The notes under the pieces are model-generated. The model was not told where the DNA came from, ran no database searches, and was given only the letters and a program-made list of their open reading frames with translations. This document shows, one piece after another, positions 16,789-48,953 of a stretch of DNA of 64,000 nt. Source of the stretch: Gemmatimonadota bacterium (GTDB lineage Bacteria; Gemmatimonadota; Gemmatimonadetes; Longimicrobiales; Longimicrobiaceae). The stretch spans positions 1 through 64,000 of the forward strand of contig JAIRKD010000072.1 of the NCBI GenBank assembly GCA_031260285.1, read 5' to 3'. Both the position numbers and the translations under genes were made by a program. How positions within the stretch are numbered: position 1 is the stretch's first letter; each line of letters starts with the position of its first letter.

Positions 16789-16840
16789 AACAGGGATCAT
16801 CAAACGGAAACGGCCGGATGATCCGAAGACCAGAGACAAG

Positions 16841-16876
16841 CGGGGGCGTTGCTTACGACGCCCCCGTTCCTGTTTT
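16841..16876 (+). terminator. Rho-independent terminator of copCD
   Basis: CGGGGGCGT (16841-16849) pairs perfectly with ACGCCCCCG (16858-16866) across an 8-nt loop, followed by TTCCTGTTTT. It lies 52 nt after copD. The remaining 200 nt up to 17091 hold no gene I can support. Confidence 0.85.
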
Positions 16877-17091: not shown

Positions 17092-18591
17092 ATGAACGTA
17101 CTGTACACAGCAGTAGTTACCGCCGGATCCGGCCGGAACGGCCCGGTCCGGAGCGATGATGGAAAGCTGGACCTCCAGCTCGCCGCCCCTGCGGGTCTGG
17201 GTGGGAACGGAGAGGGAACCAACCCTGAGCAGCTCTTTGCTGCAGCATACGCCGCCTGCTTCGGGAGCGCCGCTGCAGGCGTTGCCCGCCGCGAAAACCT
17301 GGACACCGGTGGTGGAGCAATCACAGCCAGCGTCTCGCTCGGCCGGACCGAAGCGGGGGAGTACCGGCTTGCTGTCCATCTGGAGGGCTCTTTTCCCCAC
17401 CTCTCCTCCGGGGAAGGGATGCGTCTGATGCAGGCGGCTCATGCGGGCTGCCCGTACTCGAACGCAACCCGCGGGAATGTGGATGTCACCCTCTCCGTGA
17501 AGCAGCCTGAGGGGGCGGAACAAACCGGTCTTTTCTCCCCATGGACGCTGGGTGACCTGGAGCTGAAGAACCGTCTGGTCATGCCACCGCTGACCCGGAA
17601 CCGCGCGCCCGGCCTCGTCGCCAACCGGCTGATGGCGGAATACTATGCCCAGCGGGCCTCCGCCGGCCTGATCATCTCCGAAGGAACGCAGATTTCGGAG
17701 CTTGGTCAGGGCTACCAGGACACTCCGGGCATCTATACTGAAGCGCAGCGTGATGGGTGGAGGATTGTCACCGACGCGGTTCATGCCGCAGGTGGGCGTA
17801 TCTTCGCGCAGCTCTGGCACGTCGGCCGGGTCTCTCATTCGTACTACCATGGCCAGACCCCCGTGGGGCCGTCAGCGATTCCGGTGCCGGGGATGGCGTA
17901 CACTCCGGAGGGAATGGTTCCCTACGAGACTCCGCGCGCCCTCTCCCTGGAGGAGATCGGAGAGGTTGTGGAGCAGTTCCGGCACGCTGCGGTGCTTGCC
18001 CGCGATGCCGGCTTTGATGGTGTCGAAGTCCATGCGGCAAACGGGTACCTCATTGACCAGTTCCTTCGCACCGGCTCCAATGTCCGTACGGACCGCTATG
18101 GCGGATCCGTCGAGAACCGCCTCCGCCTGCTGCGCGAGGTGACGGAGGCGGTTGTGGCGGAATGGCCGGAAGGCCGGGTCGGCGTTCGCCTCTCCCCCGC
18201 GGGCGGAGTGAATGGCGCGTCTGACGATGATCCGGTTGCCACCTTCAGCGCGGCGGCCCAGCTGCTGAACAGCTTCCCGCTTGCCTGCCTGCACCTCGTT
18301 GAAGGGCCGGTTGGTCCGGCTCGATCTGATGGCGCCAGAGTCAGCGCAACGGAAATGATCCGCCCGCTCTTCAGGCGCACAATCATCAGTACCGGCGGCT
18401 ACAACCGTCAGAGTGCAATTGCAACGGTTGAAAAAGGCACAGCGGATCTGATCGGATTTGGCCGGTTCTTCATCGCCAACCCCGATCTGCCGGCGCGGTT
18501 CCGCTCGGATGCCCCTCTGAATGAGCCCCATCCCGAGACATTTTACGGTGGCGGCGAGAAGGGGTATACCGACTACCCGACACTTCCCTGA
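17092..18591 (+). CDS. Ohr peroxidase-old yellow enzyme fusion
   Basis: A 499-residue two-domain protein. Residues 1-140 form an OsmC/Ohr organic hydroperoxide reductase: 'GTNPEQLFAAAYAACFGSA' carries the peroxidatic Cys (C56) and 'AGCPYSNATRGN' the resolving Cys (C120). From about 145 to the end is a flavin-dependent old yellow enzyme/alkene reductase of the NemA type: 'LKNRLVMPPLTRNRAPG', 'FAQLWHVGRVSH', then 'VHAANGYLIDQF', which gives the substrate-binding H314/N317 and proton-donor Y319. All key residues of both halves are intact. The ATG at 17092 begins at the Ohr homology; a reading to 17032 adds unlikely residues. The enzyme could reduce lipid hydroperoxides and then the alpha,beta-unsaturated carbonyls they yield. 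A zinc alcohol dehydrogenase follows after 37 nt. Confidence 0.9.
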   Translation: MNVLYTAVVTAGSGRNGPVRSDDGKLDLQLAAPAGLGGNGEGTNPEQLFAAAYAACFGSAAAGVARRENLDTGGGAITASVSLGRTEAGEYRLAVHLEGSFPHLSSGEGMRLMQAAHAGCPYSNATRGNVDVTLSVKQPEGAEQTGLFSPWTLGDLELKNRLVMPPLTRNRAPGLVANRLMAEYYAQRASAGLIISEGTQISELGQGYQDTPGIYTEAQRDGWRIVTDAVHAAGGRIFAQLWHVGRVSHSYYHGQTPVGPSAIPVPGMAYTPEGMVPYETPRALSLEEIGEVVEQFRHAAVLARDAGFDGVEVHAANGYLIDQFLRTGSNVRTDRYGGSVENRLRLLREVTEAVVAEWPEGRVGVRLSPAGGVNGASDDDPVATFSAAAQLLNSFPLACLHLVEGPVGPARSDGARVSATEMIRPLFRRTIISTGGYNRQSAIATVEKGTADLIGFGRFFIANPDLPARFRSDAPLNEPHPETFYGGGEKGYTDYPTLP

Positions 18592-18628
18592 TTCTCCGGA
18601 TCTATTTCTCCCTGATCAGATCATACTG

Positions 18629-19681
18629 ATGACGACCAAGGCATGGGGCGCACATTCCGCCCGGGAACTCCTGGGCCCGCTGGATATTTCCCGGCGTGAG
18701 CCCGGACCCCACGATGTGCAGATTGATATTGACTGGTGTGGTGTCTGTCACTCCGACCTTCATACTGTCCGCTCCGAGTGGAGTGGAACCCGTTATCCGT
18801 GTATCCCCGGCCATGAAATCATCGGTCGGGTCACGGCGGTTGGCGGTGCGGTGACGGGGTTCGCGGTGGGTGATACCGTTGGCGTCGGCTGTATGGTCGA
18901 CAGCTGCCAGAGTTGTTCCGCCTGCGAGGAGGGGCTCGAACAGTACTGTGAGAACGGCTTCTCGGGAACCTACAACAGTCCTGTCAGCGACGCGCCCGGT
19001 CACACACTGGGAGGATACTCGAAGCGGATTGTGGTTGATGAGAAGTTCATCCTGCGCATCAGTCACCCCGCCGGGCAGCTTGCCGCCGCCGCTCCGCTCC
19101 TCTGCGCCGGGATCACAACCTGGTCCCCCCTGCGCCACTGGGGTGTTGGCCCGGGGAAGAAGGTTGGCATTGCAGGTGTCGGCGGCCTGGGTCATATGGG
19201 GATCCGGCTCGCAAAGGCGCTTGGTGCGGAGGTTGTCGCTTTTACAACCTCGGAGAACAAGCGTGAGGACGCCCGGGCTCTGGGCGCGGATGAAGTAGTT
19301 GTGTCGAGGAATCCGGAGGAGATGAAGGCGTACCGCTCCAGCTTTGATCTGATTCTGGACACCGTGTCAGCCAGCCATAACCTCGATGACTTTGTCAGTC
19401 TTCTGAAACGCGATGGAACGCTTGCGCTGGTCGGGGTGCCCGAACATCCGCACCCGTCTCCCAATGTAGGCCAGATTGTCTTCAGCAGGCGGGCGATTGC
19501 TGGATCATTGATCGGCGGAATCCGGGAGACTCAGGAGATGCTCGACTTCTGCGCGGAACACGGAATTGTCTCTGATGTGGAGGTGATCCCCATCCAGCAG
19601 ATCAATGAAGCCTACGAACGGATGCTCCGGAGTGACGTGCGCTACCGCTTTGTGATTGATCTCTCTTCGTTGGAAGGATGA
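18629..19681 (+). CDS. Zinc-dependent NADP alcohol/aldehyde dehydrogenase (YahK/CAD-like)
   Basis: A 350-residue medium-chain dehydrogenase of the cinnamyl-alcohol type that interconverts aldehydes and alcohols. Catalytic zinc ligands lie in 'DWCGVCHSDLH' and 'PGHEIIGRV'. The structural zinc loop CQSCSACEEGLEQYC has the four Cys in CX2CX2CX7C spacing. The Rossmann motif 'GVGGLGHMGIRLAKALGAEV' followed by 'FTTSENKR' (Ser and Lys/Arg rather than an acidic residue) suggests NADP(H). The start at ATG 18629 follows the fusion gene by 37 nt, so the two probably form one operon. It could reduce aldehydes left by lipid peroxide breakdown. That role is inferred from context. Confidence 0.9.
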   Translation: MTTKAWGAHSARELLGPLDISRREPGPHDVQIDIDWCGVCHSDLHTVRSEWSGTRYPCIPGHEIIGRVTAVGGAVTGFAVGDTVGVGCMVDSCQSCSACEEGLEQYCENGFSGTYNSPVSDAPGHTLGGYSKRIVVDEKFILRISHPAGQLAAAAPLLCAGITTWSPLRHWGVGPGKKVGIAGVGGLGHMGIRLAKALGAEVVAFTTSENKREDARALGADEVVVSRNPEEMKAYRSSFDLILDTVSASHNLDDFVSLLKRDGTLALVGVPEHPHPSPNVGQIVFSRRAIAGSLIGGIRETQEMLDFCAEHGIVSDVEVIPIQQINEAYERMLRSDVRYRFVIDLSSLEG

Positions 19682-19738: not shown

Positions 19739-19758
19739 GGGCGTTGTATGCAACGCCC
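19739..19758. repeat. Short perfect palindrome (GGGCGTTG/CAACGCCC)
   Basis: GGGCGTTG-tatg-CAACGCCC, preceded by GTA. It resembles small dispersed palindromes of the GTAGGGGCG...CGCCCC type found in many genomes. A related broken form occurs at 19863 (GGGCGTTACATGC), and the copCD terminator stem at 16841 has a similar core. It lies 58 nt after the dehydrogenase gene. Confidence 0.6.
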
Positions 19759-19904
19759 GGGTATCCTCCACGGATATGACAGAGTATGCGGGAAGGGGCC
19801 GGAAGTCTGATGCGAGGGTTGTATTGCGTTTGACAGGGCGGCCATTCGGTCCCGGGATGGCAGGGCGTTACATGCATCTCCCCTTCACCTTTTGGTGTAT
19901 ACAG

Positions 19905-19966: not shown

Positions 19967-22900
19967 CTACCAGGAAACCTTCACCCCCGCCCGTCCGCTG
20001 AAGCCATTCCCCGGCTGGCTGATACCAGCATTGTAATCAGCGGCACCAAAAAGACTGACATTCCGCGTCAACTGGCCTGAAACGCCAAGGCCACTCTGCA
20101 GCCAGGTCCCGCCCAGCGCAGCTCTGAAGCTGCTCGGAAAAGCGCCTTCCAGGGTGGAGAACGTCGTCTCTGTATCAGCCCCGAACTGGTGCCAGAGGTT
20201 GGTTTCCCCCCAGGCGGATACCGTACAGCCACGACGGGTGAACCAGTTCCTGGTCAGCTTCGTACCCAGCCGCCCATAGACTTCGCTGGTCGGATCGGAA
20301 CGGATCAGGGAAAACTCGTCCGGGCTGTTATCAATGCTTGTCCGCTGATAGACCAGCTGTCCCTGTGGAGTCATACTGTAGTTGCCACCCAATGAGAGCC
20401 TGTGGCCGGCCTCGACAGAAGCTGTAAGACCCTGGCCCTTGATGCGGAAGCTTTCATCGGTAACAGAGTTGGCATGGATGTTCTGGTACATTGTTCCTTG
20501 CAGCACGAGATCAGTGTACCAGCCAATCGCGGCATGGTGGGTCCAGTATCCCCCGAGTGTGTAGCCATCCATACCGGCCTTCCCTGCCTCATCTCCGTCG
20601 GGCATCTTCACATTGCTGCGCAGTGTGCTGGCGCCGACGTACAGGCCGGCACCGTCGGCTGCGGAGTGGTAGAGGTTGACGCCGACCTGCATACCCCCGA
20701 AGTCGAAGTCATAAGCCGGTCCATCCTCCGCAAAGCTGAGATTGTCGCTGCTGTTCTCGCCGGACGAACCGGTCTCGCCGAATACGCGAGCCCAGAGCCT
20801 CGTATCGCATTGAACGACGGTTGAACGCTCCGTGGCGCGGCGGTTCTGATCGGCGGTCTCCCGGACATCAGCGGGGCAGACCCGCGTTTCACTGATATCG
20901 CCGGTACGGTGGGTGTACGTGCCAAGCATCTCCAGACCAAGCCGGCTCGCCAGTGCAGGGACGACGACATGGAGCGGCACCTCCCGGCGGAGGCTTGCGC
21001 GCAGATACCAGTTCCCGTCGCTGGCATCAGCCCCGACGCCGTTCTTGAACAGATTATAGCTGTAGGCACCCGCCGTAAGCGGGGGGCCGATCAGGCTGAA
21101 CGTACCATCAGAAATACCATGGACTTCCACGAGCTCGATGCCGTTTCCCGTAGTCTGTGCCCCCAGGCCACCAGCGACGGCAACACGTACATCGGTTGCC
21201 CCCGACGTATTCCCGTCCACCACCATCCTGTCCGTGGGTGAGCTGTCAGGGCCGAGGATCGTGTTGAACACAATTGTACCTCCGTTGCCGATATAGTCAC
21301 CGGTAACGGTCAGGATTGTGCCGGGTGCTGTTCCTGTGCCCATATTCACGAGCCCGGCGTTCGTCAGGCCGGCAACCTGCTGGCTGAAGCCCGCCAGGTC
21401 GAGAACACCTGCATCATCAACGCTCATCGCCGAGTTGGGAGAAAATACGTTTACCGCCCCTGCCCGTAACGTTCCGCTGCTGACAATCGTATTGCCGCTG
21501 TAACTGTTTGCGGTACCAGCCAGCAGCAGAGTGCCGGGACCGGTCTTGGTAAGGCTGCCGGATCCATCAATTGCTCCGGTCAGCGTTAATGTGACGCCGT
21601 TCTCCACTTCAAAGGTTCCTCCAAGCCCGGGCAGGGAAGGGTTGTATTCCCCGACGAGGTGAACCGCGCGGGCCGTGGTGAAGCTCGCCGTTACATCCAG
21701 CGTTCCACCATCAAAGCCAAGCGCTCCTGAGGCCGCGCCGAGATTGTTGTCCGCCGCGACCCTCACCACGCCACCTGACATCTCGGTGCCACCCGTGTAG
21801 CTGTTATTGCCGCTCAACACCAGCGTGCCGAGATCATGTTTCGCCAGCTGGGTTGTACCCGACAGGTTGCTCTGGATCGTTGCCGTATAGTCCGCACCCG
21901 TAGAAGTGCCATTACCCACGCGGATGATGGATTGACCCGGAGTGGAAGGTGAATCAACCAGAAGAATACTGTTCCCCGTCACAACATATCCATCCGAAGC
22001 AAACTGCATCCCCGAAGCGGAGACCTGACCCAGGCTGTTGTCCACTGTCACCGCCCCCGGCTGGGCCATGAAGACAGCGAAGTCCGCATTACTCCAGAAG
22101 CCGATCGGTACACCTGTCTGATCCGTCCAGTTGGTATTCCCCGCCGAGCTCTGCCAGACCCCATTGCCGCCATTAACTATGCCATTGCCATGCAGGCTGG
22201 TATTCCCACCGTCCCAGAAGGTATAGAAACCCGGAGGGGGCGCATTGATTACGAGGTTGACCTGTCCGGGTACCGAAGTCTGAACGGAATAGGTATTGGT
22301 TCCGGGCAGCGATCCCAGCGCGAGGGTACTGGAGGGGTTGGTCCACAAGCCGTCATATGTGATGATACGGTAGACGCCGGGATCGAAGCTGCCGCCGGAG
22401 GTCTGGGTTACATTCAGGGTCCCCCCCAGCGTCAGATTGCCATTGACAGTTACGTGATCGTTAAGCGCCTGATTGACAACATCCGGCTTTCCGAAATTGT
22501 AGTTGAGGATGGAACCGCTGTTGAGTACGAGATTCCCGTTGATTGTCAGTTCGCTCACAACACCGCTTCCACCCTCATTCGGCGCGAGAACACCGCCACT
22601 GGCGATGGATGTGTTCCCGGTGATGGTCCCACTGCCCGCGATGACTGCTCCGGTCTGTACCGTCACCGTGCTGCCCACCCGTCCGTATACAGCTCCGTTA
22701 TCCACCCGCAGGATCGTGCCTGCTCCCGTGATCGTGGTGCTCGCCAGGATATCCGAGGTACGGTCCGCGGCGTTGGAATAGAGCGAGCCATCAAACAGAA
22801 CCATCCCGCCACCGCTGATGTTCACGCCAGTTAGGGTGCTGCCTCCGCTGATCGGATCATAAAATCTGATTGAGTGTCCGGATGTATTAAAGACAGCAGT

Positions 22901-24175
22901 ATTGGATGAAGCGAAGTAGATCGCGTTGGCCCGCGCCGTTGTTGCAGTATTCTGCATATTGCCTGAAAAAACGATATCTCCCCCGGCTGCATTCAGGGTG
23001 ACACTGTTTCCCGCATAGATCGCCCCACCCAACCCTCCGGCGGAGTTACCGGAGAACAGCACGTGATTGTTGCCGGTGATGTTGATGCTGCCGCTGCTGA
23101 GCGTGGCGATCGCTCCGCCAACGGAGTTGCCGCTGATGCCGGTGCTGGTCGCTCTGTTGCCCGTGAATGTAATATTATTCCCGGTGATGCTGAGCCCGCC
23201 ACCGACACTGACTGCCGCTATCGCGCCGCCGTAAACAGTACCATTGGTAACACTGCTGCTGGCACTGTTGTTCGAAAACAGGATATCGTTGCCGGTGATT
23301 GTGATGCTGCCACCATCGCTTACTCCCGCAACCGCGCCACCGTAAGTATTGCCGCTGAGAGCGCTGTTGCTGGCACTGTTGTCTGAAAACGTGATGTTGT
23401 GACCGGAAATCGTAATTCCGCCGCCGTCGCTTACTGCTGCAACCGCGCCTCCATAGACAGTATTGGAGCCATCTCCGGAGGCAGAAGCGCTGTTTCCGGA
23501 GAACAGGATGTCGCCGCTGTTGATTACAAGGCCACCATTGATACTGCTGACTACCGTGATCGCTCCGCCGATGGTTCCGCCACTCTCCCCGCTGGTAGCC
23601 GCGCTGTTGTTTATGAATGAGATCGTACCGACATTCAGCGTGAGATAGTCACCATTCGTCGCAGCAACCGCACCGCCATAAGCCCCGCCGGTGGTGGTTT
23701 TTGTGAGATGATTATCGGAAAATATGATATTGTCACCGTTGATCGTCGGGCTGAGGTAGGTGAAGCCGATCGCGGATCCGTAATCGGCGTTCTGGGTATC
23801 AATTGCGCCTGTTATCGTAATGTTATACAGATTGAGAGTTGCCGGATCGTGCGGATCCAGCGAGGAGTTGCCCACCGCGCGGAGACGGCCATTAACCGGG
23901 GGCGTCGCGAGATCGTGCATGGTAAGCGTATTGCCATTACCATTGATCGTCAGCGTTCCGTTTGTCGGCATGATAACAAGGCTGGACAGATAGATTCCCG
24001 AACTGTTCAGATTCCAGATCGCTCCATCCGCCGGGGTCGTTGTTCCCGTCGCGGCGGTGAGGCTTCCTGGTGAGTTCACATCAACGATCTGGGCATGTGC
24101 GGGTGCTGCCCGGATCCCGAATACCAGAGCGACCACGCTGGCTGCGGCACGAAAATTTCCGGCTCGCCATTCCAT
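19967..24175 (-). CDS. Type V autotransporter (1402 aa)
   Basis: A large self-secreted surface protein. The signal peptide 'MEWRAGNFRAAASVVALVFG' ends at AHA-Q near residue 29. The passenger (about 30-1110) is a beta-helix. Residues about 150-430 contain repeated Gly/Asn/Ser blocks with 'YGGAVAAVSDGGGITISGHN' and 'ITFSDNSASNS', as in polymorphic outer-membrane proteins. About 780-970 has two autotransporter-associated beta-strand repeats ('GTLVLSGNNSYTGGT', 'GTLLLAGTANSYSGN'). Residues about 1120-1402 form the C-terminal beta-barrel translocator, ending '...GRAGVKVSW' with the terminal aromatic residue. AAGGAG lies seven bases before the ATG. It is single-gene and convergent with the dehydrogenase. 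A paralogue starts at 62103. Likely adhesion or biofilm role; ligand unknown. Confidence 0.92.
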   Translation of the reverse strand: MEWRAGNFRAAASVVALVFGIRAAPAHAQIVDVNSPGSLTAATGTTTPADGAIWNLNSSGIYLSSLVIMPTNGTLTINGNGNTLTMHDLATPPVNGRLRAVGNSSLDPHDPATLNLYNITITGAIDTQNADYGSAIGFTYLSPTINGDNIIFSDNHLTKTTTGGAYGGAVAATNGDYLTLNVGTISFINNSAATSGESGGTIGGAITVVSSINGGLVINSGDILFSGNSASASGDGSNTVYGGAVAAVSDGGGITISGHNITFSDNSASNSALSGNTYGGAVAGVSDGGSITITGNDILFSNNSASSSVTNGTVYGGAIAAVSVGGGLSITGNNITFTGNRATSTGISGNSVGGAIATLSSGSINITGNNHVLFSGNSAGGLGGAIYAGNSVTLNAAGGDIVFSGNMQNTATTARANAIYFASSNTAVFNTSGHSIRFYDPISGGSTLTGVNISGGGMVLFDGSLYSNAADRTSDILASTTITGAGTILRVDNGAVYGRVGSTVTVQTGAVIAGSGTITGNTSIASGGVLAPNEGGSGVVSELTINGNLVLNSGSILNYNFGKPDVVNQALNDHVTVNGNLTLGGTLNVTQTSGGSFDPGVYRIITYDGLWTNPSSTLALGSLPGTNTYSVQTSVPGQVNLVINAPPPGFYTFWDGGNTSLHGNGIVNGGNGVWQSSAGNTNWTDQTGVPIGFWSNADFAVFMAQPGAVTVDNSLGQVSASGMQFASDGYVVTGNSILLVDSPSTPGQSIIRVGNGTSTGADYTATIQSNLSGTTQLAKHDLGTLVLSGNNSYTGGTEMSGGVVRVAADNNLGAASGALGFDGGTLDVTASFTTARAVHLVGEYNPSLPGLGGTFEVENGVTLTLTGAIDGSGSLTKTGPGTLLLAGTANSYSGNTIVSSGTLRAGAVNVFSPNSAMSVDDAGVLDLAGFSQQVAGLTNAGLVNMGTGTAPGTILTVTGDYIGNGGTIVFNTILGPDSSPTDRMVVDGNTSGATDVRVAVAGGLGAQTTGNGIELVEVHGISDGTFSLIGPPLTAGAYSYNLFKNGVGADASDGNWYLRASLRREVPLHVVVPALASRLGLEMLGTYTHRTGDISETRVCPADVRETADQNRRATERSTVVQCDTRLWARVFGETGSSGENSSDNLSFAEDGPAYDFDFGGMQVGVNLYHSAADGAGLYVGASTLRSNVKMPDGDEAGKAGMDGYTLGGYWTHHAAIGWYTDLVLQGTMYQNIHANSVTDESFRIKGQGLTASVEAGHRLSLGGNYSMTPQGQLVYQRTSIDNSPDEFSLIRSDPTSEVYGRLGTKLTRNWFTRRGCTVSAWGETNLWHQFGADTETTFSTLEGAFPSSFRAALGGTWLQSGLGVSGQLTRNVSLFGAADYNAGISQPGNGFSGRAGVKVSW

Positions 24176-46289: not shown

Positions 46290-48953
46290 TCACCAGCCTG
46301 GATCAGTTGTCCAGATCCGGATCTCGCCCCATCTCTCAACAACCGGTACAGCAGGGGTGCGATTGAAATTCCGGCCCATCGATACTCCGCCCAGCCCCGT
46401 TATCGTAATCTCTGCGACGGCATCTGTTCGAAGCGTATCGTCAAGCCAGTACCGGAAACGTGGTACATCGAGATCCACAGCTACCCGATGGCGATGCCAT
46501 TTGCCATCCAGGATCTCCCTGTTTGCGGGCCCCCGCCGGTACCATCCTCCCGGCCCCTCATAGATGCCGCCAACATGGTCGCCTTCGGCATTGAATGAAC
46601 CGCCTGGTCCATTTTCCATGTTCACTGCGAAACGACCGATAAGACCGCTCCCGTTATCGCCGTGGACAAACAGTACCTTCTTGGCCGAAACTCCGTCAAG
46701 GAAGTTTGTCGGGTAGAGCGACCACCATTCAACCCACACCTTGCGTGTCCGGGCTGGCAGCCGGAGCATGCGAGTGATGGTCGGCTCAACAGCGTTCACC
46801 GGCCAGTCATAGCGCATCGTGGGATGACCGTTGAAAAGGACGTCGGTATCCAGGGTGATACGACTGGTCTGCTGATCTTCCACCCGATTGTAAATGCCGC
46901 GCGGGTCGGAAATGAAGTTCGCCGTGGAAGTATACGTCGAGAAGTCCTCAACAATAGCCGGGGCGGCCGCTGGCTTTGCGCCTGGACCCGATGAGTTTGA
47001 AGTCGTTACCGTGATCGTCGCGGTTGCGGTTCTGCCTTCACTGGTCGCCGTGATGGTCGCGGTCCCGGTTGCGCGGGCGGTGACAACACCGGTGGCAGAA
47101 ACGGTAGCGACAGTCTGGTTGCTGCTCGACCAGGTGACGGTGCGCCCGGTAAGCGTGTTGTTGCCGGCGTCGCGGGTAGTCGCTGTCAGCGTCTGAGTGG
47201 CCCCCACCGCGATGCTTGACGTAGTCGGCGACACGACAACAGTGGCGACAGGCACCGCGGTGACGGTGATGGCCGCCGTGGCGGTCTTGCCTTCACTGGT
47301 AGCGGTGATGGTCGCGGTTCCGGTTGTGCTGGCCGTGACAACGCCGGCGGCAGAAACGGTAGCGACGGTCTGGTTGCTGGTGGACCAGGTGACGGTGCGG
47401 CCGGTCAGCGTATTGTTGCCGGCGTCGCGGGTGGTCGCCGTCAGCGTCTGTGTGGCTCCCACCGCGATGCTTGCCGTAGTCGGCGACACGACAACAGTGG
47501 CGACGGGAACGGCGGTGACGGTGATGGCCGTCGTGGCGGTCTTGCCTTCACTGGTAGCGGTGATGGTCGCGGTCCCGGTTGCGCTGGCCGTGACAACGCC
47601 AGCGGTGGAAACGGTCGCGACTGCCTGATTACTGCTCGACCAGGTAACGGTGCGTCCCGTAAGCGCGTTGTTGCTGGCGTCGCGGGTGGTCGCCGTCAGT
47701 GTCTGAGTGGTTCCAACCGTGATGCTTGCCGTAGTCGGCGACACTGCAACACTCGCAACCGGAACCGTGGTGATGGTCACGGCGGCGGTACCGGACCGCC
47801 CCTCGCTGGTAGCTGTAATCGTCGCGGTTCCAGCGGCGCGGCCGGTCACAACACCCGTGGCGGAGACAGTGGCCACCGCCTGATTGCTGGAAGACCAGGT
47901 GACGGTCCGGCCAGTGAGCGTGTTGTTGCTGGCGTCCCGGGTGGTTGCGACCAGGGTCTCGGTGCTGTTGACGGTGATCGCCGAGGAAGAAGGCGATACG
48001 GCTACACTCGCAACCGGCACAACGGTGACCGTGATAGCTACGGTGGCGGTCTTCCCTTCGCTGGTCACAGTGATTGTGGTATTTCCCGCCGCCTTCGCTG
48101 TGACCACCCCATCACTGGCAACCGTCGCAACCGCTGCGTTCCCGCTCGACCAGGTGAAGGCCCGTCCGGGGAGCGTATTCCCGCTGGCGTCGCGGGCGGT
48201 CGCAGTCAGCGCCTGCGTCGAACCAACCATGATGCTCGCGGAGGTCGGAGACACCCGCACGCTGGCAACCGATACGGCTGTAGCGGTGATGGTCGCGGTC
48301 GCCGAAACTCCCTCGCTCGTAGCCGTGATCGTGACAGTTCCCACGGCAAGAGCTTCAACAACACCACCAGAGGAGACGGTGGCGGTCTTCTGGTTGCTTG
48401 ATGACCAGGTGACGGTGCGCCCCGTGAGCGTGTTATTGTGCGAATCGCGCGTGGTGGCGGTCAACGTCTGTTTCGCACCAACAGCGAGGTTCGTCGAACT
48501 GGGTGATACACTTATACTCTTTACACCTGCCGCGGTTGAAACCCGCACCCGGTTGGATCGGCCGGTCACCCAGTTCCAGACTGATCCGCGCAGCGATACG
48601 AGCTGGAACTCATATTCTGTCGCGGGATCCAGCCCGGTATAGGTATACTCGATGATCTCGCCGACACCATCCGGAGCGGGAATGACCCGCTCTGTTCTTG
48701 TTGCGGATTCCCATTCGAAGTCGGGGGATCCGGATCGCAGCGCATAGCTGGCTGATCCGCCCTTTCCATCGCAGGTGGAGGTCCACCGGAGCACCACGGA
48801 GCTGTCCGTGATGCTGGCTACCGTAAGGTCTCCGACCGATGAAGGATTGCTTACACTGTCCGGACCGATCCCCGCTCCCTGACAGCCCGCGATAATTACG
48901 AGGACCGCCAGGGCGGCCGTTACGAGTCCTCGAATGGAAAGCCTTCCCGTCAT
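46290..48953 (-). CDS. Lipoprotein with FN3, six BIG2 repeats and lyase-like tail
   Basis: An 887-residue surface lipoprotein. The signal sequence ends in lipobox IIAGC (Cys about 24). A fibronectin-III-like domain follows (about 40-140, 'SSVVLRWTSTCDGKG', 'TGLDPATEYEFQLVSLRG'). Six bacterial Ig-like (BIG2) repeats of 85 residues cover about 143-652, each 'VSPTTASIAVGATQTLTATT' then 'GRTVTWSSSNQTVATVSA'. Residues about 675-887 are a concanavalin-like domain ('VWVEWWSLYPTNFLDGVSAK', 'DGKWHRHRVAVDLDVPRFRY') similar to polysaccharide lyase/LamG folds. Its place within a glycan locus suggests binding or cutting of the produced polymer. Lyase activity is not shown by the sequence. Confidence 0.8.
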   Translation of the reverse strand: MTGRLSIRGLVTAALAVLVIIAGCQGAGIGPDSVSNPSSVGDLTVASITDSSVVLRWTSTCDGKGGSASYALRSGSPDFEWESATRTERVIPAPDGVGEIIEYTYTGLDPATEYEFQLVSLRGSVWNWVTGRSNRVRVSTAAGVKSISVSPSSTNLAVGAKQTLTATTRDSHNNTLTGRTVTWSSSNQKTATVSSGGVVEALAVGTVTITATSEGVSATATITATAVSVASVRVSPTSASIMVGSTQALTATARDASGNTLPGRAFTWSSGNAAVATVASDGVVTAKAAGNTTITVTSEGKTATVAITVTVVPVASVAVSPSSSAITVNSTETLVATTRDASNNTLTGRTVTWSSSNQAVATVSATGVVTGRAAGTATITATSEGRSGTAAVTITTVPVASVAVSPTTASITVGTTQTLTATTRDASNNALTGRTVTWSSSNQAVATVSTAGVVTASATGTATITATSEGKTATTAITVTAVPVATVVVSPTTASIAVGATQTLTATTRDAGNNTLTGRTVTWSTSNQTVATVSAAGVVTASTTGTATITATSEGKTATAAITVTAVPVATVVVSPTTSSIAVGATQTLTATTRDAGNNTLTGRTVTWSSSNQTVATVSATGVVTARATGTATITATSEGRTATATITVTTSNSSGPGAKPAAAPAIVEDFSTYTSTANFISDPRGIYNRVEDQQTSRITLDTDVLFNGHPTMRYDWPVNAVEPTITRMLRLPARTRKVWVEWWSLYPTNFLDGVSAKKVLFVHGDNGSGLIGRFAVNMENGPGGSFNAEGDHVGGIYEGPGGWYRRGPANREILDGKWHRHRVAVDLDVPRFRYWLDDTLRTDAVAEITITGLGGVSMGRNFNRTPAVPVVERWGEIRIWTTDPGW
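47010..48540. repeat. Six tandem 255-nt units encoding BIG2 domains
   Basis: Corresponding blocks (for example GTGACAACRCC) recur at about 47077, 47332, 47587, 47842, 48097 and 48352, exactly 255 nt apart. The units nearest the 3' end of the gene (47010-47770) are nearly identical at DNA level; those nearest the 5' end have diverged. This pattern fits recent expansion at one end and makes the array prone to copy-number change. Confidence 0.93.

Follow-up and report, generated by a model that had tools for sequence, protein, structure and literature searches.

An Ohr–Old Yellow Enzyme Fusion Next to a YahK-Type Aldehyde Reductase Gene in a Gemmatimonadota Genome

Introduction

A single open frame in the genome of a Gemmatimonadota bacterium encodes an Ohr, a thiol peroxidase known as the organic hydroperoxide resistance protein, joined to an old yellow enzyme (OYE), and on the sequence evidence this fusion of two stress enzymes that normally occur apart is a real and so far singular combination of domains from well-known enzymes. 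It lies in the window, the whole 64,000-nucleotide stretch analysed here (assembly GCA_031260285.1, contig JAIRKD010000072.1, positions 1 to 64,000), and is known from this single genome, probably a metagenome assembly. The reading that we favour, with moderate confidence, is that of a genuine fusion of an Ohr with an OYE of the NostocER1/XenB/NemA type, a chain with dual activity that is encoded in a putative two-gene unit with a YahK-type reductase. An earlier note on this DNA had described the fusion, called it unusual, and placed the three activities in a line from hydroperoxide to enal to aldehyde; the fusion and its rarity hold, and the sequential metabolic line does not. If real and active, the protein would physically tie the removal of peroxides to the disarming of peroxide-derived electrophiles and would allow a simple test of whether such coupling benefits the two defences. 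It would also interest biocatalysis as a bifunctional ene-reductase provided ready-made by nature, and it would extend the range of fusion partners of the Ohr domain.

The Fusion Gene and Its Two Halves

Translation of the fusion gene (Table 1) gave 499 residues without an internal stop, and Pfam placed both OsmC (residues 38-134, E 3e-13) and Oxidored_FMN (residues 147-476, E 1e-78) on this one chain. Together with the NCBIfam assignments, this bears out the description of a single 499-residue chain that holds a complete Ohr and a complete OYE. The codon usage of the gene follows that of its neighbours, with an RSCU correlation of 0.94.

Table 1. Positions of the fusion gene, its parts, and the adjoining features in the window.
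Feature	Position	Strand	Basis or remark
Ohr-OYE fusion gene	17092..18591	+	499 aa, one open frame; codon usage neighbour-like
Ohr domain, residues 1-137	17092..17502	+	TIGR03561, invariant residues, PDB Ohr matches (best 1usp)
Linker, residues 138-144 (QPEGAEQ)	17503..17523	+	no in-frame stop
Old yellow enzyme domain, residues 145-499	17524..18588	+	Pfam, NCBIfam, conserved residues, predicted barrel
YahK-type NADPH-dependent aldehyde reductase (CAD-like zinc dehydrogenase), 350 aa	18629..19681	+	homology
Hairpin with palindrome copy (palindrome 16844-16863), upstream of the unit	16839..16868	.	terminator-like, not above chance
Perfect palindrome copy GGGCGTTGTATGCAACGCCC, downstream of the unit	19739..19758	.	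sequence match
Further palindrome copy	19863-19882	.	sequence match

The N-terminal half scores as Ohr-specific and not as OsmC: the Ohr model TIGR03561 spans residues 4-136 with 146.2 bits (cut-off 88.85), and the OsmC model TIGR03562 reaches 43.3 bits, under its cut-off of 85.8. The catalytic R15 and E46 and the peroxidatic and resolving cysteines, C56 and C120, are invariant in an alignment of 11 Ohr sequences (the fusion and ten unfused Ohr proteins, to which it is 38-53% identical), so that the two cysteines proposed earlier, C56 (codon 17257-17259) and C120 (codon 17449-17451), are confirmed as those of an Ohr. The half resembles known Ohr proteins (TIGR03561; PDB 1usp, the best PDB match, and 1n2f) over the whole domain, including the arginine, the glutamate, and both cysteines; whereas an unfused Ohr ends after about 140 residues, that of the fusion continues into a C-terminal flavoenzyme.

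The C-terminal half is a complete domain, as it covers positions 2-341 of the 342 in the Pfam model Oxidored_FMN. T168, Q240, H314, N317, and Y319 are conserved in an alignment of OYE homologues, and the three residues singled out by the earlier note fare well there, H314 (codon 18031-18033) and Y319 (codon 18046-18048) being invariant and the conservation of N317 reaching 90% or more. We take H314/N317 to be the substrate pair, Y319 the proton donor, and T168 and Q240 part of the flavin site. The half is predicted to fold as a barrel, with pLDDT mostly >90, and its nearest solved structure is NostocER1, at 56% identity and a TM score of about 0.94-0.95 for the predicted model. This model was built from an alignment with OYE rows only, as mixed Ohr and OYE alignments misplaced the rows of one half; because that alignment lacked Ohr sequences, the Ohr half was modelled at low confidence, with strands and helices in the order expected of an Ohr.

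Of the OYE subfamily models, NemA (PRK10605) scores best, at 352.8 bits, but stays below its cut-off of 403, and by these comparisons the half is a NemA/XenB-like OYE and not NemA itself. It has the H/N pair, the tyrosine, the threonine, and the glutamine in common with OYEs of the NostocER1/XenB/NemA type and differs from them in its added N-terminal Ohr and in having, near the barrel, only an internal GTG as a start codon. In a tree, it clusters with three OYEs from its own class (support 100/99), and this grouping suggests that a resident OYE type acquired an Ohr.

The Downstream Gene and the Transcription Unit

The zinc dehydrogenase that had been noted 37 nt after the fusion is indeed there, starting at 18629, and is of the YahK type. 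It matches PDB 1UUF, its best PDB match, with 562 bits over residues 3-348, shares about 70% identity with E. coli YahK, and scores 311.9 bits with the Ahr (YjgB, NF047908) model, below the cut-off of 470. E. coli YahK strictly requires NADPH and reduces many aldehydes but no ketones, hexanal being turned over best (PMC3684718). The likeness to the E. coli enzyme (PDB 1UUF) extends over the full length, and the difference is one of setting, as the gene in the window adjoins an Ohr-OYE fusion. Genes for CopC and CopD lie upstream and an autotransporter gene lies downstream on the opposite strand, so the putative transcription unit is probably two genes long, the fusion and yahK. No promoter match was found, no clear ribosome-binding site was seen, and no regulator gene linking the unit to peroxide stress was seen nearby. 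Among the loci from other genomes, L152 has an OYE gene (168-1229) convergent with a CAD-like dehydrogenase gene (1244-2230) whose product is 34% identical to the YahK of the window.

Rarity and Distribution

Across about 1,880 whole genomes, among them 154 of the same order, no second Ohr-OYE fusion turned up, which supports the view that the fusion is unusual. The full chain was searched in 41 close relatives, in 395 genomes sampled from the phylum, in the 154 genomes of the order, in five further phyla (246, 193, 247, 299, and 148 genomes), and in 14 selected genomes or records, and an Ohr-only search covered 149 genomes of the class; the total, 1,886, counts some genomes more than once. 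The best full-chain matches in the searched genomes were OYEs alone. When 84,980 species genomes were scanned, the best 80 matches were likewise OYEs only, a result that a distant fusion could escape. No Ohr-OYE fusion occurred among the plasmid, phage, and viral-contig matches listed, a scan of IMG/VR gave no match, and no relevant report of such a fusion was found in the literature. Ohr itself is uncommon in the class, in which 5 of 149 genomes, the fusion genome included, reach E 1e-22.

Among the matches listed, the only plasmid places with both whole halves are in Sphingomonas panacis, where an unfused ohr precedes an OYE gene by 395 nt, and in Spirosoma oryzicola, where an unfused OYE gene precedes ohr in the reverse order. 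These two pairs indicate that ohr and OYE genes came together more than once; that the genes are neighbours on both plasmids, which are unrelated, and in either order hints that they are functionally linked.

Open frames upstream of other OYE genes (L074, L087, L093, L110, L159, and others) were inspected for a hidden Ohr, and none encodes one. Long matches such as L009 were rejected as fusions, their internal stop marking them as chance extensions. In Sansalvadorimonas verongulae (L077, 4983-7247), a single open frame encodes two tandem OYE domains.

Proposed Function

In the explanation that we favour, the chain would most likely dimerise through its Ohr half, which would reduce organic (lipid) hydroperoxides to alcohols by means of C56/C120 and would itself be re-reduced by the lipoylated proteins of the cell. 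Lipoamide dehydrogenase and lipoylated proteins are the known reductants of Ohr (PMC4486171), and since the genome encodes two lipoamide dehydrogenases as well as lipoyl domains, this recycling route is available. With NAD(P)H and FMN, the OYE half would saturate electrophiles such as enals and quinones, and the aldehydes left over would be reduced by YahK. The proposed line from hydroperoxide through enal to aldehyde was wrong in its chemistry, as the product of Ohr is an alcohol and not an enal. The steps would form parallel branches instead, because enals and aldehydes come from hydroperoxides that escaped reduction; judged by their families, Ohr, OYE, and YahK would thus act side by side against one peroxide/aldehyde stress. 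A joint role in peroxide/aldehyde detoxification is reasonable, given the adjacent NADPH-dependent aldehyde reductase. Against this explanation, the chemistries of Ohr and OYE have no common intermediate. The occurrence of the fusion in one genome and in none of the relatives searched, the inactive OsmC domain of an esterase fusion (PMC5113044), and the negative results for a promoter match, a clear ribosome-binding site, and a nearby peroxide-stress regulator also count against it. We infer expression as one chain, dimerisation, the activities, co-transcription, and the physiological substrates alike.

Alternative Explanations

The best-placed alternative, although we consider it unlikely, is that only one half is enzymatically important and that the other is a passenger or a module for oligomerisation or regulation, as may be the case in OsmC-domain carboxyl esterases. 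In these enzymes, the fused OsmC domain, although its two cysteines are intact, was without peroxidase activity, and it reduced the activity towards longer substrates (PMC5113044). They resemble the fusion in that a domain of the OsmC superfamily is joined to a metabolic enzyme, but their order is reversed, with OsmC C-terminal, their partner is an esterase instead of a flavoenzyme, and the identity of their assay-inactive OsmC part to E. coli OsmC is only about 15% (PMC5113044). Pfam found no hydrolase domain in the fusion, which places it outside the OsmC-domain esterases. The fusion, moreover, keeps all Ohr catalytic residues along with a strong Ohr-specific score, it keeps the OYE residues too, and it is the only Ohr and the only OYE found in its genome with the full-length query, beside one distant OsmC.

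Nearly as well placed, and likewise improbable, is a unit for general defence against electrophiles or reactive chlorine and xenobiotics, NemA-like and not specific to lipid peroxides. It would agree with NemA as the best OYE subfamily model, albeit below cut-off, with the CopC/CopD genes upstream, and with papers on electrophile/HOCl stress, which in the parts available name both NemA and Ohr. The preferences of the enzymes fit lipid peroxidation instead, as YahK favours aliphatic aldehydes, hexanal best of all (PMC3684718), and Ohr prefers organic hydroperoxides (PMC4486171).

Almost level with these two, we rate as doubtful an error of assembly or sequencing, or a frameshift at strain level, that merged overlapping ohr and OYE genes, the former ending in TGA and the latter starting with GTG. 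The similarity to Ohr stops at K137 and that to OYEs sets in near residue 145, leaving a linker of about seven residues. Within the joint, CTCTCCGTGAAG, the letters GTGA include a TGA in the +1 frame, and the only start-like codon in frame nearby is the GTG at 17497-17499 (V136, in the OYE frame); no ATG opens the OYE half. A one-base indel at this GTGA could in principle merge overlapping genes, in nature or during assembly, and the fusion is a singleton across every search. Yet the fused frame keeps the conserved C-terminal LSVK of Ohr (compare LSVKTR in Sphingomonas), and since in-frame similarity runs through this motif, the Ohr lies in the fused frame right up to the joint. An error would, furthermore, be possible with only one tight gene arrangement, and the genes scanned in the window are otherwise mostly whole frames.

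Least probable by far is that the FMN of the OYE re-reduces the Ohr disulfide, which would make the chain an NAD(P)H-driven reductase of organic hydroperoxides that works on its own, without a lipoylated partner, since to our knowledge OYEs have no redox-active cysteine pair suited to re-reducing an Ohr.

Genomic Setting

Contamination of the bin was rejected as a simple explanation, the tetranucleotide profile and GC content of most of the contig fitting other contigs; the genome was covered by 20 sampled stretches. The piece at 16-24 kb, which includes the repetitive autotransporter, fits their composition less well. That autotransporter (19967-24175, minus strand) has 1402 residues with autochaperone and passenger-associated repeats.

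A dispersed palindrome is common to this contig and others of the genome, which likewise speaks against contamination. Copies of it, GGGCGTTGNNTNCAACGCCC, flank the two-gene unit on both sides; three places give 6 strand matches, where chance would give 0.35, and related palindromes give 10 loose matches in 149 kb of other contigs. The palindrome thus resembles a REP-like repeat scattered through the genome.

Further along the window, 27805-61684 is likely an exopolysaccharide locus, with glycosyltransferases, a VanZ-like protein, an O-antigen ligase, two Wzz/tyrosine-kinase-like proteins, an export protein, a polysaccharide deacetylase, and an ATP-grasp protein. At 46290-48953 (minus strand), an 887-residue protein carries six Big_2 immunoglobulin-like repeats and an fn3 domain.
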